Origin: Acidimicrobiia bacterium | GTDB lineage: Bacteria > Acidobacteriota > Vicinamibacteria > Vicinamibacterales > CAVVIG01 | NCBI GenBank assembly: GCA_016871175.1 | Contig: VFZL01000010.1 | Location: forward strand, 1 to 64,000 | Direction: 5' to 3' | Length of the DNA: 64,000 bases | Notes under the pieces: model-generated | Told to the model about the DNA's origin: nothing | The model's database searches: none | What the model saw: the letters and a program-made list of their open reading frames with translations, nothing else | Translations under genes and position numbers: made by a program | Shown: positions 8,439 to 12,654 of the stretch, piece by piece | Layout: each line of letters starts with the position of its first letter | How positions within the stretch are numbered: the first letter of the stretch is position 1

Positions 8439-10304
8439 ATGCGCGGGGCCGGTCTCACGGGTGTCGCGTCAGTTGCGTGCGTCCTCGTGATCGGGATCGC
8501 CGCGCACACGCCTGCGCACGCCCGACAGCATCAGGCGCGTTCGTCCTCAGACGCCATCGATGCGGGTGCGCTGTTCCGCGCGCAGTGCACCTCCTGCCAC
8601 GGGGGCACCGATGTCCGCATCCCCTCCGCTGAGGCACTCCGGCAGCGGACGCCGGAAGCCGTGCTCGACGCGCTGAACATCGGGTCGATGCGCCAGCAAG
8701 GCAGCGGCCTGACGGACGCCGAGCGACGCGCGATCGCGACGTACCTGACGGGCCGCGCACCGGCGGATCGCGCGTCGGACGTCGTCGCGAACAGGCCGGC
8801 AGCGTGCGTAGCGGCACCCCCGCTGACATCGACAGACCGCGTGTTGTGGGGCGGCTGGGGTCCATCGCTCTCCAACGCACGGTTCCAGCCGGCGGCACAA
8901 GCCGGTTTGCGCGTCGACCAGATTCCGCGACTGAAACTGAAGTGGGCGTTCGGATTGCCGGCCGCGACATCGGCGCGAGGCCTCCCGACCGTCGCGGGCG
9001 ACCGTGTGTTCTTTGGGAGCCAGGACGGGACCGTCTACGCGCTGGACGCGAGGAGCGGCTGCACGATCTGGACCTTCAAGGCGAAAGCCGGCGTGCGGGC
9101 TCCCGTCGTCATCGACGCGACGGTCGGCTCAGGCATCACGGCGTACTTTGGCGACGGGCGGTCGAACGTCTACGCGCTTAACGCCGCCACAGGCCAGTTG
9201 CTCTGGACGCGACCGGCCGACGATCATCCCGGCTCTCACATCACCGGCGCACCGGCGGTGTACCAAGGGCGGGTCTACGTCGGCATCGCCTCCTTCGAGG
9301 AAGCTCAAGGGAACAATGCCAAATACGACTGCTGCACGTTTCGCGGCAGCATCGTCGCGCTCAACGCGGCCAATGGCTCGCTCGTCTGGAAGACGTACAC
9401 GATTGACGCGGAGCCTGGCCCGATCGGTACGAACCGTGGAGGATCCACGCGCTTCGGCCCGTCGGGCGCCGGTGTCTGGGCCTCCCCCACCATCGACGTC
9501 AAGCGGCGGCTGCTCTACGCCGCGACCGGCAACATGTACACCGAGCCGCAGCAGAAGACGAGCGATGCCGTGATGGCGTTCGATCTGGACAGCGGCCGCA
9601 TCGCGTGGACAATGCAGGCGACTCCGAATGACGTCTTCGTCGTCGGCTGTAATCGGCCCAATCCTGCCAATTGCCCCACGGTTGAAGGTCTCGGACCGGA
9701 CTTCGATTTCGGGAACGCTCCGATGCTGGTGAATCTGGCGAGCGGTCGAGACATGATCGTGATTGGTCAGAAGTCCGGCGTCGGCTTCGCGCTCGACCCT
9801 GACAAGCGTGGCGAGATCGTTTGGCAGTATCGCGCGGGAAAAGGGAGTGCGCTAGGCGGGATGGAGTTCGGATCCGCGGCGGATGACACCAACGCCTATT
9901 TCCCCGTAGCCGACCCGAATCAGCCGACGGCGGGCGAGCTCCACGCGGTGCGGCTTGCATCGGGCGAGCGTGCCTGGCTGACGCCTCCGCGCCCTCTGCT
10001 CTGCGGCGCACGCGGACGCGGCTGCACACCGGCCATCCTCGCAGCAATCACGGTGATTCCCGGGGCCGTGTTCGCAGGCGCCATGGATGGCGGCCTCCGC
10101 GCATATGCGACGACGGACGGATTGCTGCTGTGGGAGTTCGACACGAACCGGGAGTTCACGACCGCGAACGGTGTGAAAGCCGCAGGCGCGTCCATCAACG
10201 GACCCGGCCCCGTCGTCGCCGGAGGCATGGTGCTCGTGAACTCCGGCTACGGCGCGCTCGGCGGCCGTCCTGGGAACGTCCTGCTCGCGTTCGCCGTGGA
10301 GTGA
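8439..10304 (+). CDS. Quinohemoprotein-like dehydrogenase (cytochrome c plus PQQ-type beta-propeller)
   Basis: The ATG at 8439 gives a clean signal peptide (residues 1-28, ending AHA); the open frame further upstream overlaps the previous gene. Heme motif C50-T-S-C53-H54 lies in a short N-terminal cytochrome c domain. An eight-bladed propeller follows, with repeated blades of the type GTVYALDARSGCTIWTF. A vicinal cysteine pair (C298-C299, in KYDCCTFRG) resembles the one typical of PQQ-dependent alcohol and polyvinyl-alcohol dehydrogenases. The likely role is periplasmic oxidation of an alcohol with electrons passed to cytochrome c. The substrate is not evident. It is probably co-expressed with the upstream heme/copper protein. 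Confidence 0.8.
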   Translation: MRGAGLTGVASVACVLVIGIAAHTPAHARQHQARSSSDAIDAGALFRAQCTSCHGGTDVRIPSAEALRQRTPEAVLDALNIGSMRQQGSGLTDAERRAIATYLTGRAPADRASDVVANRPAACVAAPPLTSTDRVLWGGWGPSLSNARFQPAAQAGLRVDQIPRLKLKWAFGLPAATSARGLPTVAGDRVFFGSQDGTVYALDARSGCTIWTFKAKAGVRAPVVIDATVGSGITAYFGDGRSNVYALNAATGQLLWTRPADDHPGSHITGAPAVYQGRVYVGIASFEEAQGNNAKYDCCTFRGSIVALNAANGSLVWKTYTIDAEPGPIGTNRGGSTRFGPSGAGVWASPTIDVKRRLLYAATGNMYTEPQQKTSDAVMAFDLDSGRIAWTMQATPNDVFVVGCNRPNPANCPTVEGLGPDFDFGNAPMLVNLASGRDMIVIGQKSGVGFALDPDKRGEIVWQYRAGKGSALGGMEFGSAADDTNAYFPVADPNQPTAGELHAVRLASGERAWLTPPRPLLCGARGRGCTPAILAAITVIPGAVFAGAMDGGLRAYATTDGLLLWEFDTNREFTTANGVKAAGASINGPGPVVAGGMVLVNSGYGALGGRPGNVLLAFAVE

Positions 10305-10331: not shown

Positions 10332-11222
10332 TCACGGCTCTTTCGTGTAGTGAGCCGTTCCGAGCTTCCGAAACGCCCCGCCGTCTACGGAGAACTCTTC
10401 GTTGATGTCGAACGCGGTCTCCGACAGCACTGACATCACGCGACGTAACTGATACGTCTTCCCGCCCGACACGAGCGGTGTGGTCTGGAAGACAATCGCG
10501 AGCGGACTGGTCCAGTTACCGAGACTCATCAGCTCGACGCCATCCGCACGCCGCTCGTGGTAGGCGATCGCTTTCGTCTCCGCATTGACGCCAATGGCGA
10601 TCGTCTCCTTGAACGGCTTGCCCATCGACTGACCGTCGACCGTGCCCTGTACGAACTGTGTGCCGCTGGGCGTCGAGAACGTCACTGTGCCGGAGCGCTC
10701 GCCGGAGCTCAGGGGAGGGAATTCACCGCCGAGGTAATCGAACTTCCATCGGCCCGTAAAGTAGTCTGCGCGTTGGGTGACGTGCGTTTGCGCAACGTCC
10801 TGGCGTGCGCGCCGCTGCAAATCGAACGTCACGGCGATCGCCTGGTTGCCAACGCCGACCGTGCCGTTACCGCGCAGCACGTTCCCGTCCGCCTTCAGAT
10901 CCGCCGCGACTCGCACAGCGCCAAGCTTGGAGTCCGCCACGCCTTCGATCGAGACCGTCGGCGCGTTCACGGTCACCTTGGCGAGCGCGGTCTCGCTGTT
11001 CTCGCCCACGCCGCTGGTGGACCCAGCATAACCGTCGCCCGCCTTCACGATGGTCATGATGATCAAACTGACCGTGCCGTCCGCGGACTTCAGCGTGCCC
11101 CGCCAATTGCCGATCACAGGGTCGCCCTGCCCGATGACGAGCGCCGGCATCGAGAGCGCGAGACAGAACGCGATAAGCCCAACAACCCGTGAAACCACCA
11201 ACGCGTGAACTTTTGAGCCCAT
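10332..11222 (-). CDS. Secreted protein of unknown function, signal peptide built on an octamer repeat array
   Basis: The ATG at 11222 gives a 296-residue protein with a signal peptide ending near ALVIGQ. The mature part begins with GNWRGTLKSADGTVSLIIM and is rich in short beta-strands, resembling the secreted extracellular proteins common in acidobacteria; no enzyme motif is visible. The first 20 codons lie inside a degenerate 8-bp tandem repeat that starts at the previous gene's stop. This gives a repeated octapeptide (GSKVHRIM, GSKVHALV, VSRVVGLI), of which the last two are in the signal peptide. The gene follows the serine hydrolase by 37 bp and could be co-transcribed with it. Confidence 0.6.
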   Translation of the reverse strand: MGSKVHALVVSRVVGLIAFCLALSMPALVIGQGDPVIGNWRGTLKSADGTVSLIIMTIVKAGDGYAGSTSGVGENSETALAKVTVNAPTVSIEGVADSKLGAVRVAADLKADGNVLRGNGTVGVGNQAIAVTFDLQRRARQDVAQTHVTQRADYFTGRWKFDYLGGEFPPLSSGERSGTVTFSTPSGTQFVQGTVDGQSMGKPFKETIAIGVNAETKAIAYHERRADGVELMSLGNWTSPLAIVFQTTPLVSGGKTYQLRRVMSVLSETAFDINEEFSVDGGAFRKLGTAHYTKEP

Positions 11223-11262
11223 GATCCGATGAACCTTCGAACCCTTGAATCCTTGAACCCTA
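11164..11262 (-). repeat. Degenerate 8-bp tandem repeat array (consensus GGTTCA-G)
   Basis: Read on the minus strand right after the TAG at 11262-11260, the sequence divides into twelve consecutive octamers: GGTTCAAG, GATTCAAG, GGTTCGAA, GGTTCATC, GGATCATG, GGCTCAAA, AGTTCACG, CGTTGGTG, GTTTCACG, GGTTGTTG, GGCTTATC, GCGTTCTG. Similarity fades gradually into the coding region. The fifth unit contains the ATG of the downstream gene. Because eight is not a multiple of three, three units encode one octapeptide repeat. Confidence 0.8.
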
Positions 11263-12627
11263 TTGGACGATGGCCTGCATGACGGCGTTTTCGAAATCGC
11301 GGTTGAGCTGGGCATTCATCGCCTGTTGGATAAGGATCATCGCGGTCAGCCGCTCCTTGCGGTCCACCCAGAAGTGTGTGCCGAAGGCGCCGTCCCAGCC
11401 GAAGCTTCCCGCCGATACGCGACGATTCGCCGTGATCGGATCCAAGACAACTTCCACCGTCAGACCGAAACCCATCCCCTTTCGCGTGCCCTCAGGATTC
11501 GACTGCGCGTACAGGTCGCCGGTGTGATTCGAGGACATGAGGTCCACGCTCCTCGGGCTGAGGAGGCGCGAGCCGTTCCACGCGCCGCCATTGGCCAACA
11601 TCTGTGCGAACTGCGCGTAGTCTTGAGCCGTGGACCACAAACCGCCCCCGCCCGAGAAGAACGTCCGCGTCGCGAGCCAGTCCGGCGTGTCCTGCCGATC
11701 CAGCCGACCCGGTGTGCGGCGGTACAGCGTGACGATGCGCGGCGCATGAGCGTCCAGCGGGAAGAAGCCGGTGTCCTTCATGCCGAGTGGATCGAAGATC
11801 CGCTGTCTGAGAAACTGATCGAACGTCAGCCCGGAGACCACTTCGACGATCCGGCCGAGAACGTCGATGCCCGCCAATCCGCTGTACCGCCACTGCGTGC
11901 CTGGCTGAAAGTCGAGTGGCACCGCGCCGAGCTGTGCAACCCATGTGGCGAGCGTGCCGCTGGGCTTGCGTGGGGCGATGCGGCCGCCTTCGCGCGTGCC
12001 CGCGCCTCCGCTCTGGAGCCCCGCGGTGTGCGTCAGGAGATCGCGAACGGTGATCTCACGTGCAGCGGGCACCGTGTAGATCTCGGGTTCACTGGCCTGC
12101 TGCTGGCCTTGAGCCCCCGACGCCGCGGCCAACCGCGCGGGCGCCGCCTTGGGCATCGCGATTGTGGTGTTCTTGAACTCCGGGATGAATCGCGACACCG
12201 GGTCGGTGAGACGCAGCGTGCCTTCCTCCATCAGCATCAGAATCGCCACACCGGTCACCGGCTTCGTCATGGACGCCATGCGAAACACGCCGTCTTTGCG
12301 CATCGGCGTCTTCGCCTCGGCGTCCATCATTCCAGTGGCTTCGAAGTGAGCCGTGCGCCCACTCCGTGCCACGAGCGTCACCGCGCCAGCGATCTGGCGC
12401 TCGTCGATGTAGCGCTGCACCAGCTGCCCAATCCGCTGCAGACGTTCGAGCGACAGGCCGACATCCTCACCTATCGAGGCGGGTGCCGCGGCTGGCGCCA
12501 CCGCAAAGGCCACGAGCGCAGCGGCGACGGCCGCTGTGCCGACAATCGCGACACCGAGTCGGTGCGCTCGAGAGCGAACGCCGGTTGATGGCACGCCTCG
12601 CCGGGTCGAACGGATCAGTCTCTCCAT
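11260..12627 (-). CDS. Class C beta-lactamase-family serine hydrolase
   Basis: This 455-residue protein starts at the ATG at 12627, preceded by GGGAGG. An N-terminal signal or anchor segment spans about residues 25-50. The catalytic SxxK is present as S119-M-T-K122. The YxN-type motif is YSG in 'WRYSGLAG', as in many esterase or EstB-like members of the family. A GG-rich loop near 'FFSGGGGLWSTAQDYAQF' is typical of this group. Family members hydrolyse esters or D-amino-acid peptides in the periplasm; true beta-lactamase activity is not implied. It is convergent with nothing and lies downstream of the ankyrin gene on the same strand (27-bp gap). Confidence 0.82.
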   Translation of the reverse strand: MERLIRSTRRGVPSTGVRSRAHRLGVAIVGTAAVAAALVAFAVAPAAAPASIGEDVGLSLERLQRIGQLVQRYIDERQIAGAVTLVARSGRTAHFEATGMMDAEAKTPMRKDGVFRMASMTKPVTGVAILMLMEEGTLRLTDPVSRFIPEFKNTTIAMPKAAPARLAAASGAQGQQQASEPEIYTVPAAREITVRDLLTHTAGLQSGGAGTREGGRIAPRKPSGTLATWVAQLGAVPLDFQPGTQWRYSGLAGIDVLGRIVEVVSGLTFDQFLRQRIFDPLGMKDTGFFPLDAHAPRIVTLYRRTPGRLDRQDTPDWLATRTFFSGGGGLWSTAQDYAQFAQMLANGGAWNGSRLLSPRSVDLMSSNHTGDLYAQSNPEGTRKGMGFGLTVEVVLDPITANRRVSAGSFGWDGAFGTHFWVDRKERLTAMILIQQAMNAQLNRDFENAVMQAIVQ

Positions 12628-12654
12628 GGACAGCCTCCCCTTCGCGGCGGTCAC

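Follow-up and report, generated by a model that had tools for sequence, protein, structure and literature searches.

An octamer repeat array at the 5′ end of a gene for an exported-looking protein and its dispersed family in an acidobacterial genome

The array and the genes that it connects

The part of the window considered here (the window being the whole analysed stretch of DNA, 64,000 nucleotides) carries a serine hydrolase gene and a gene for an exported-looking protein in tandem on the minus strand, a convergent neighbour of the latter and a short tandem array, which begins at the stop codon of the hydrolase. The features are as follows.

8439–10304, plus strand: convergent neighbour, coding for a PQQ-type beta-propeller protein that has a cytochrome domain (Pfam and gene call)
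10332–11222, minus strand: gene of an exported-looking protein with no Pfam match, after the array; about its first 14 codons from the ATG are array
11164–11179, minus strand: two further claimed units, GGCTTATC and GCGTTCTG, doubtful (core scan only; no period above chance)
11180–11259, minus strand: tandem array of 10 degenerate octamers, consensus GGTTCANG (period 8 and position-weight scan)
11220–11222, minus strand: ATG of the following open reading frame (ORF), within unit 5 (sequence and ORF list)
11260–11262, minus strand: hydrolase stop codon, adjoining the first unit of the array (sequence and ORF list)
11260–12627, minus strand: serine hydrolase of the Beta-lactamase family (PF00144, E 1.2e-70), before the array; start set by a simple gene caller

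Since the gene caller was a simple codon-score script, gene edges carry some error. The script placed the start of the downstream gene at 11150; the ORF of the hydrolase spans 11260–12654. The downstream gene may be translated from the array's ATG (11222–11220), and alternative in-frame TTG and GTG start codons are present within unit 8. A Pfam search with its product found no family.

On the minus strand octamers of the GGTTCANG type follow the stop codon of the hydrolase directly and run from 11259 down to about 11180. The reality of this repeat, claimed in a preliminary description of the DNA, was confirmed by autocorrelation: over 11164–11262, 53 of 91 positions matched at distance 8, whereas 2000 dinucleotide shuffles gave 23.8 matches on average and never as many as 53. 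Periods 16 and 24 were likewise elevated, and in the 64 kb window this is the strongest place for period 8 (41 matches for the runner-up). Read downwards from 11259, units 1–6 are GGTTCAAG, GATTCAAG, GGTTCGAA, GGTTCATC, GGATCATG and GGCTCAAA, and units 7–12 are AGTTCACG, CGTTGGTG, GTTTCACG, GGTTGTTG, GGCTTATC and GCGTTCTG. The position-weight scan registered 10 units (11180–11259), a looser core scan 12 (11163–11259). Because from 11179 to 11100 period 8 stays at the chance level (23 of 72 matches, 19.9 expected; 23 or more in 733 of 3000 shuffles), units 11 and 12 of the preliminary description are doubtful; ten are firm, and both their start right after the stop codon and the location of the ATG in the fifth of them were correct. 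The units are degenerate: positions eight apart agree in 58% of cases (53/91), so that the array lacks the near-identical units of phase-variable simple sequence repeats. Neither an intrinsic terminator (hairpin followed by a T run) in the region 10900–11500 nor a match to Rfam models at the gathering score anywhere in the window was found.

Periodicity is not confined to the untranslated part of the array. Upstream of the ATG 21 of 29 positions match at period 8 (7.0 expected; 0 of 3000 shuffles reach this), and after the ATG 24 of 51 (13.8 expected; 5 of 3000). In the coding part 23 period-8 matches were registered against 13.5 in synonymous recodings of the same peptide, none of 5000 recodings reaching the observed number. 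The period therefore goes beyond what the peptide dictates and the start of the ORF is array DNA; counted from the ATG, array and ORF overlap. The octapeptide repeats earlier ascribed to the signal peptide are present mostly upstream of the ATG, and within the signal peptide itself they are weak, with just 3 of 19 residues matching at distance 8.

It had also been proposed that the array expanded from the gap into coding sequence and thereby gave rise to a new signal peptide. The first part holds if the ATG is the true start, in line with the recoding test; the second is not supported. Five homologues of the downstream protein with 51–58% identity (L037, L038, L040, L041 and L042) have in common the block DPVxGNWRGT, preceded in all of them by hydrophobic, signal-like N-termini (assessed by eye, with no predictor), in some with a proline-rich linker. 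Counted from the ATG, this block starts at residue 34 in the product of the window's gene, well beyond the array's downstream end. Upstream of the block four of the five homologues have no period 8 (207 to 983 of 1000 shuffles do as well or better), in L042 it is weak (15 of 1000), and the best period in the five is 9. Since homologues without an octamer array possess signal-like N-termini, the array appears to have swapped a tip and not to have created a signal peptide, and the origin of the latter de novo from the array was rejected on the same ground. Most likely, as far as this comparison of sequences goes, the signal peptide is ancestral and only its tip was altered by the array, whose contribution to the downstream gene is the start codon and the tip at most. 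The locus may serve as an example of repeat DNA that extends from a gap into the beginning of an ORF whose signal peptide it did not create.

Homologues of the downstream gene gave matches in 15 of the 40 genomes searched, the window's own included; a query starting two codons upstream of the ATG had no match in the congener G001. Around the hydrolase, synteny was followed in 48 relatives with flanks of up to 3 kb, and the hydrolase and the downstream gene were found together, at E 1e-8, in none of the 55 loci searched.

A dispersed family with gene-edge polarity

The array belongs to a genome-wide dispersed family of short octamer tandem arrays with the unit GGTTCNNG. In the genome from which the window comes (G000) the 16-base consensus with at most 3 mismatches has 181 matches against 21 for the reversed control, and three consecutive GGTTC units have 128 matches against 0. 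When 440,057 bases were scanned with position weights, 37 arrays were detected, against 0 after reversal of the sequence, the scan having been trained on those very stretches, most of which were picked for holding hits; 184,000 unselected bases, the window included, contain 3 arrays. A likeness of GGTTCRA to the T arm of tRNA was dropped, as just GGTTC is kept across genomes.

Arrays of this genome show gene-edge polarity, whatever the direction of the gene. In 690,052 bases 53 of 56 arrays had the two flanking genes required for this analysis; they are located in 40 regions, and only one of the 53 lies mostly in predicted coding sequence. In 39 of 53 cases the GGTTC end lies closer to its gene (22 of 25 with a stop behind and 17 of 28 with a start behind), the median distances being 14 nt (gene behind the array) and 68 nt (gene ahead). 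Near an edge, arrays point inward, that is into the gap, at 22 of 28 stops and 14 of 16 starts; this count took 44 of the 56 arrays, the others lay over 50 nt away from an edge, were almost centred or lacked a pair of flanking genes. Wherever both strands carry arrays, the order is plus-then-minus (13 of 13 regions), and a single orientation is found in 27 of the 40 regions, the locus at 11180–11259 among them.

Among the 56 sampled arrays there are 11 overlaps with a predicted gene: 8 involve a stop and 3 a start, the latter being only 2–7 nt long; starts being those of the gene caller, the array at 11180–11259 is not counted here. N-termini made by arrays therefore seem to be rare in this genome.

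Other units in related genomes

Search for octamer arrays in related genomes, suggested in the preliminary description, was productive: three-unit GGTTC matches are abundant in G001 (145, reversed 0) and G022 (188, reversed 3) and number 0–8 in the other 24 of the 27 genomes of the family. The last three bases after GGTTC differ in G001 and G022, the unit of G022 being mainly GGTTCCAC or GGTTCCAG. Only one array was found in the 200,000 bases sampled from G001, so that the 145 matches may be concentrated in a small number of long arrays; this counts against the explanation that we favour below, namely growth of the unit in gaps followed by selection. In G010 the reversed control CTTGGNNN taken three times occurs 46 times, and this genome may therefore own a separate octamer unit.

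Among 199 genomes sampled across the phylum, four-unit GGTTC matches occur in 15, and more than 10 of them were registered in G000, G068, G100 and three species of one genus (G069, G081 and G105). Reversed four-unit matches in G100 are as numerous as forward ones. The genus with G069, G081 and G105 belongs to another family and has GGTTC-core octamers with mostly ACA or GCA as the last bases; the core common to it and G000 may reflect descent, transfer or convergence. In G081 there are 14 arrays against 2 in the reversed control, and jointly 7 of 9 GGTTC arrays of the three species point inward. Edge arrays of G069 and G105 are few, with one of two inward in each, and the GGTTC ends of G069 lie farther from genes, which is the contrary direction; both observations speak against the favoured explanation.

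Polarity of array families was compared in permutation tests. A loose version with 5000 permutations gave 211/393 for G000 (reached by 442 permutations), 143/243 for G022 (79) and 205/300 for G007 (0). In the strict version, with the same number of permutations, 149 of 263 pairs were concordant in G000 (179 permutations reach this), as were 119 of 160 related array pairs in G007 against 80.0 expected (0/5000). For G022 the strict test was non-significant (70/127 against 63.5; 636/5000), the signal of the loose test was thereby lost, and this too weighs against the explanation preferred here. Taken by G skew, arrays of G022 point inward at 11 of 11 starts and 20 of 30 stops. With the strand set by purines, arrays of G007 are inward at 22 of 29 stops; at starts (6 of 12) they have no polarity, again in disagreement with that explanation. 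Intergenic units of G007 (L124–L126, L138–L157) are many, 7 or 8 bases long (for instance GCAGAAAC, AGAAGTT, CGCTAAT and GAGTTGGT) and far more varied than the near-single unit of the window's genome.

In G011 and G218 the CACGAAGN strand points inward in 20 of 25 arrays (13 of 16 at stops, 7 of 9 at starts), with the same distance rule as for G000; the inward CACGAAG strand was expected from locus L039, without prior written record. With one array per strand, 6 of 6 regions of these two genomes are plus-then-minus, and one further region is plus-minus-plus. Arrays lying mostly in predicted coding sequence (3 of 29 in G011 and 3 of 19 in G218) are a further point against the explanation by growth in gaps.

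CACGAAG is abundant in G011 (146 matches, 0 reversed), and one of its arrays is found at the site that corresponds to the locus in the window. The G011 homologue of the downstream gene adjoins the convergent PQQ neighbour, as in the window, and is likely an orthologue because this neighbour is kept; the gene upstream of the array is a paralogue and not the hydrolase. The array, of CACGAARN octamers, begins at most 10 nt from the stop codon of the upstream gene, and its periodicity is reached by 4 of 400 shuffles if periods 6–10 are allowed and by 0 of 1000 for period 8 alone. It sits in a repeat of about 45 bases, of which there are two copies and another, diverged one, and the ORF stays open across the array as far as the signal peptide. 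The different octamer array at this orthologous site is one case and could be due to chance. A side observation is that the product predicted here (L039, about 2290–2508) would have a repeated N-terminal extension, MQPRRHESTKKKALS twice and a diverged copy, before the signal peptide.

One may tentatively suppose a unit-independent rule for these bacteria, by which arrays of 7–8 base units point into the gap from the nearest edge and each genome uses its own unit; we consider it rather doubtful in this general form. If true, turnover of units at fixed sites would imply a process or a selection that reads gene boundaries and not the repeat sequence, and array DNA would occasionally be fed into N-termini, as at 11180–11259 and in the G011 homologue.

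Known arrays and possible explanations

The layout described here is known from heptamer arrays, and the octamer unit is an addition to that kind. Cyanobacterial short tandemly repeated repetitive sequences (STRR) are heptamers of other sequences, dispersed between genes. GGGNATC and GGGGA(C/T)T heptamer arrays were reported in Xanthomonas and Nostoc by Rehm and colleagues (PMC4692102), who in the passages considered left their function open. According to these passages the heptamer arrays are dispersed, mostly intergenic, overlap stop codons and are rarer between divergent genes; they lie near the 5′ neighbouring ORF of any direction (on average 28 nt against 160 nt in Xanthomonas) and form convergent inverted pairs in Xanthomonas. 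The octamer arrays are likewise intergenic and dispersed, are nearer to the ORF behind the repeat strand in any direction (39/53) and form convergent inverted pairs genome-wide (13/13), the array at 11180–11259 being single. Unlike the heptamers as described there, they are built from the octamer GGTTCNNG and contain four GGG tracts in 7 of 56 cases, and similar polarity is shown by unit families of relatives with members free of G tracts. Since the quadruplex-forming GGGNATC heptamer is not their unit, the arrays were not assigned to that sequence family.

Octamers of Geobacter metallireducens (PMC2700814) are similar in being tandem, paired on opposite strands at variable distance and present in tens of copies, and differ in consensus, GTTGCTYN (four units) or TCTCCGTS[Y] (three units); they were read as sites of a global regulator, and the passages considered do not describe gene-edge polarity. 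The TAACTGA repeats of Beggiatoaceae (PMC4679880) are, in the part of the paper used, also intergenic short tandems near start codons, some overlapping gene ends or ORFs; unlike the arrays studied here they are heptamers, mainly in one orientation relative to start codons. Tandem repeats of Borgs (PMC9879509) are comparable in that, as excerpted, they contribute coding sequence and new protein regions; Borgs themselves are, in contrast, archaeal extrachromosomal elements. Many short repeats were noted in Solibacter (PMC3174227), in passages that do not give their sequences. Among the matches listed by a literature search there was nothing on acidobacterial arrays, which is a statement about those matches and not about the printed record. 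Relative to the portions of these works considered, three features go beyond what was described: the layout with units free of G tracts, a site at which the unit has changed, and the repeat-carrying start of an ORF. Similar layout with several units, some of them without G tracts, makes sequence-specific explanations (quadruplex or regulator) less likely, and it is the layout, rather than the repeat sequence, that becomes what needs explaining.

We suggest as the most likely process that a short unit grows in untranslated gaps by duplication or, presumably, slippage, and that selection would remove arrays lying inside genes or wrongly oriented, which could account for the polarity. At the locus studied the array would have grown from the stop codon of the hydrolase over the entire gap and into the beginning of the gene that follows, whose ancestral signal peptide may have tolerated the array-encoded tip. 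Arrays are probably transcribed together with neighbouring genes. Two opposed arrays in one gap could form hairpins, and matched pairing would be no general requirement. An intergenic octamer family with gene-edge polarity, shaped by slippage and selection and adding here a tip to an ancestral signal peptide, appears to us a reasonably probable account.

Opposed arrays may instead be there for the sake of the hairpins, functioning in RNA or DNA, with the first arm rich in G and the second in C, as bidirectional terminators or processing sites, for instance. The constant plus-then-minus order of mixed regions is in line with this, as is their folding: 12 of the 13 paired regions (one was too long) are more stable than 60 dinucleotide shuffles of the plus strand, with z from −0.7 to −13. 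Judged against plain shuffles, gaps with arrays also fold better than other gaps, the mean z being −1.09 against −0.19 in G000, −1.56 against −0.63 in G007 and −2.08 against −0.12 in G022. In the same three genomes convergent gene pairs have the largest proportion of array-bearing gaps and divergent pairs the smallest (0.16/0.10, 0.32/0.17 and 0.37/0.08, respectively, with no significance test). Against a hairpin function stand the 27 of 40 regions with a single orientation, including the locus itself, where terminator-like sites number 0 in 10900–11500, and the lack of specific pairing: arms match no better than arms across loci (permutation 0.15), the own partner being the top one in 1 of 13 regions. 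By this test, and with the locus itself in a single orientation, the arrays do not show the matching terminal inverted repeats of MITE or REP elements. Besides, 6 of 10 multi-array regions of G007 mix units that differ by eye, a point tempered by 5 related pairs being inverted against 3 on the same strand. Functional hairpins are therefore unlikely to be the explanation, and a matched hairpin as the general cause was set low for its unspecific arms and single-orientation regions.

By analogy with the reading given for Geobacter metallireducens, arrays might be sites bound by a sequence-specific regulator. The constant GGTTC core, with the last three bases varying between genomes, would suit such a role, and so would the opposite-strand octamer pairs described in the excerpts of PMC2700814; however, the unit differs widely among relatives and the layout recurs, which a single regulator does not predict and which makes this role quite improbable. 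G-quadruplex elements, as proposed for GGGNATC repeats, are an even poorer candidate: the layout resembles that of the published G-rich heptamers (PMC4692102, as far as excerpted) and four GG tracts fit 41 of 56 arrays, but four GGG tracts fit only 7, and polarity is seen also in unit families with GG-less members (AGAAGTT, CGCTAAT, CACGAAG), for which reasons a three-layer quadruplex was rejected as the general cause. It is just as hard to credit a phase-variable switch, in which the exported-looking protein would be turned on and off by frame shifts as the coding part gains or loses octamers: octamers do lie inside the coding start and 8 is no multiple of three, and the shift by two per unit pointed out earlier is arithmetically right (8 mod 3 = 2), yet it is limited to units downstream of the ATG, that is to half of the array, in-frame TTG and GTG starts are available inside it, and degenerate units (53/91) should lower slippage. 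Phase variation is unsupported, and presumably the array does not undergo it.

Of the 13 paired regions the clearest matched pair is that of L076 (10755–10896), where 36 of 40 letters of the two arrays match and a long hairpin is formed with z of −13.
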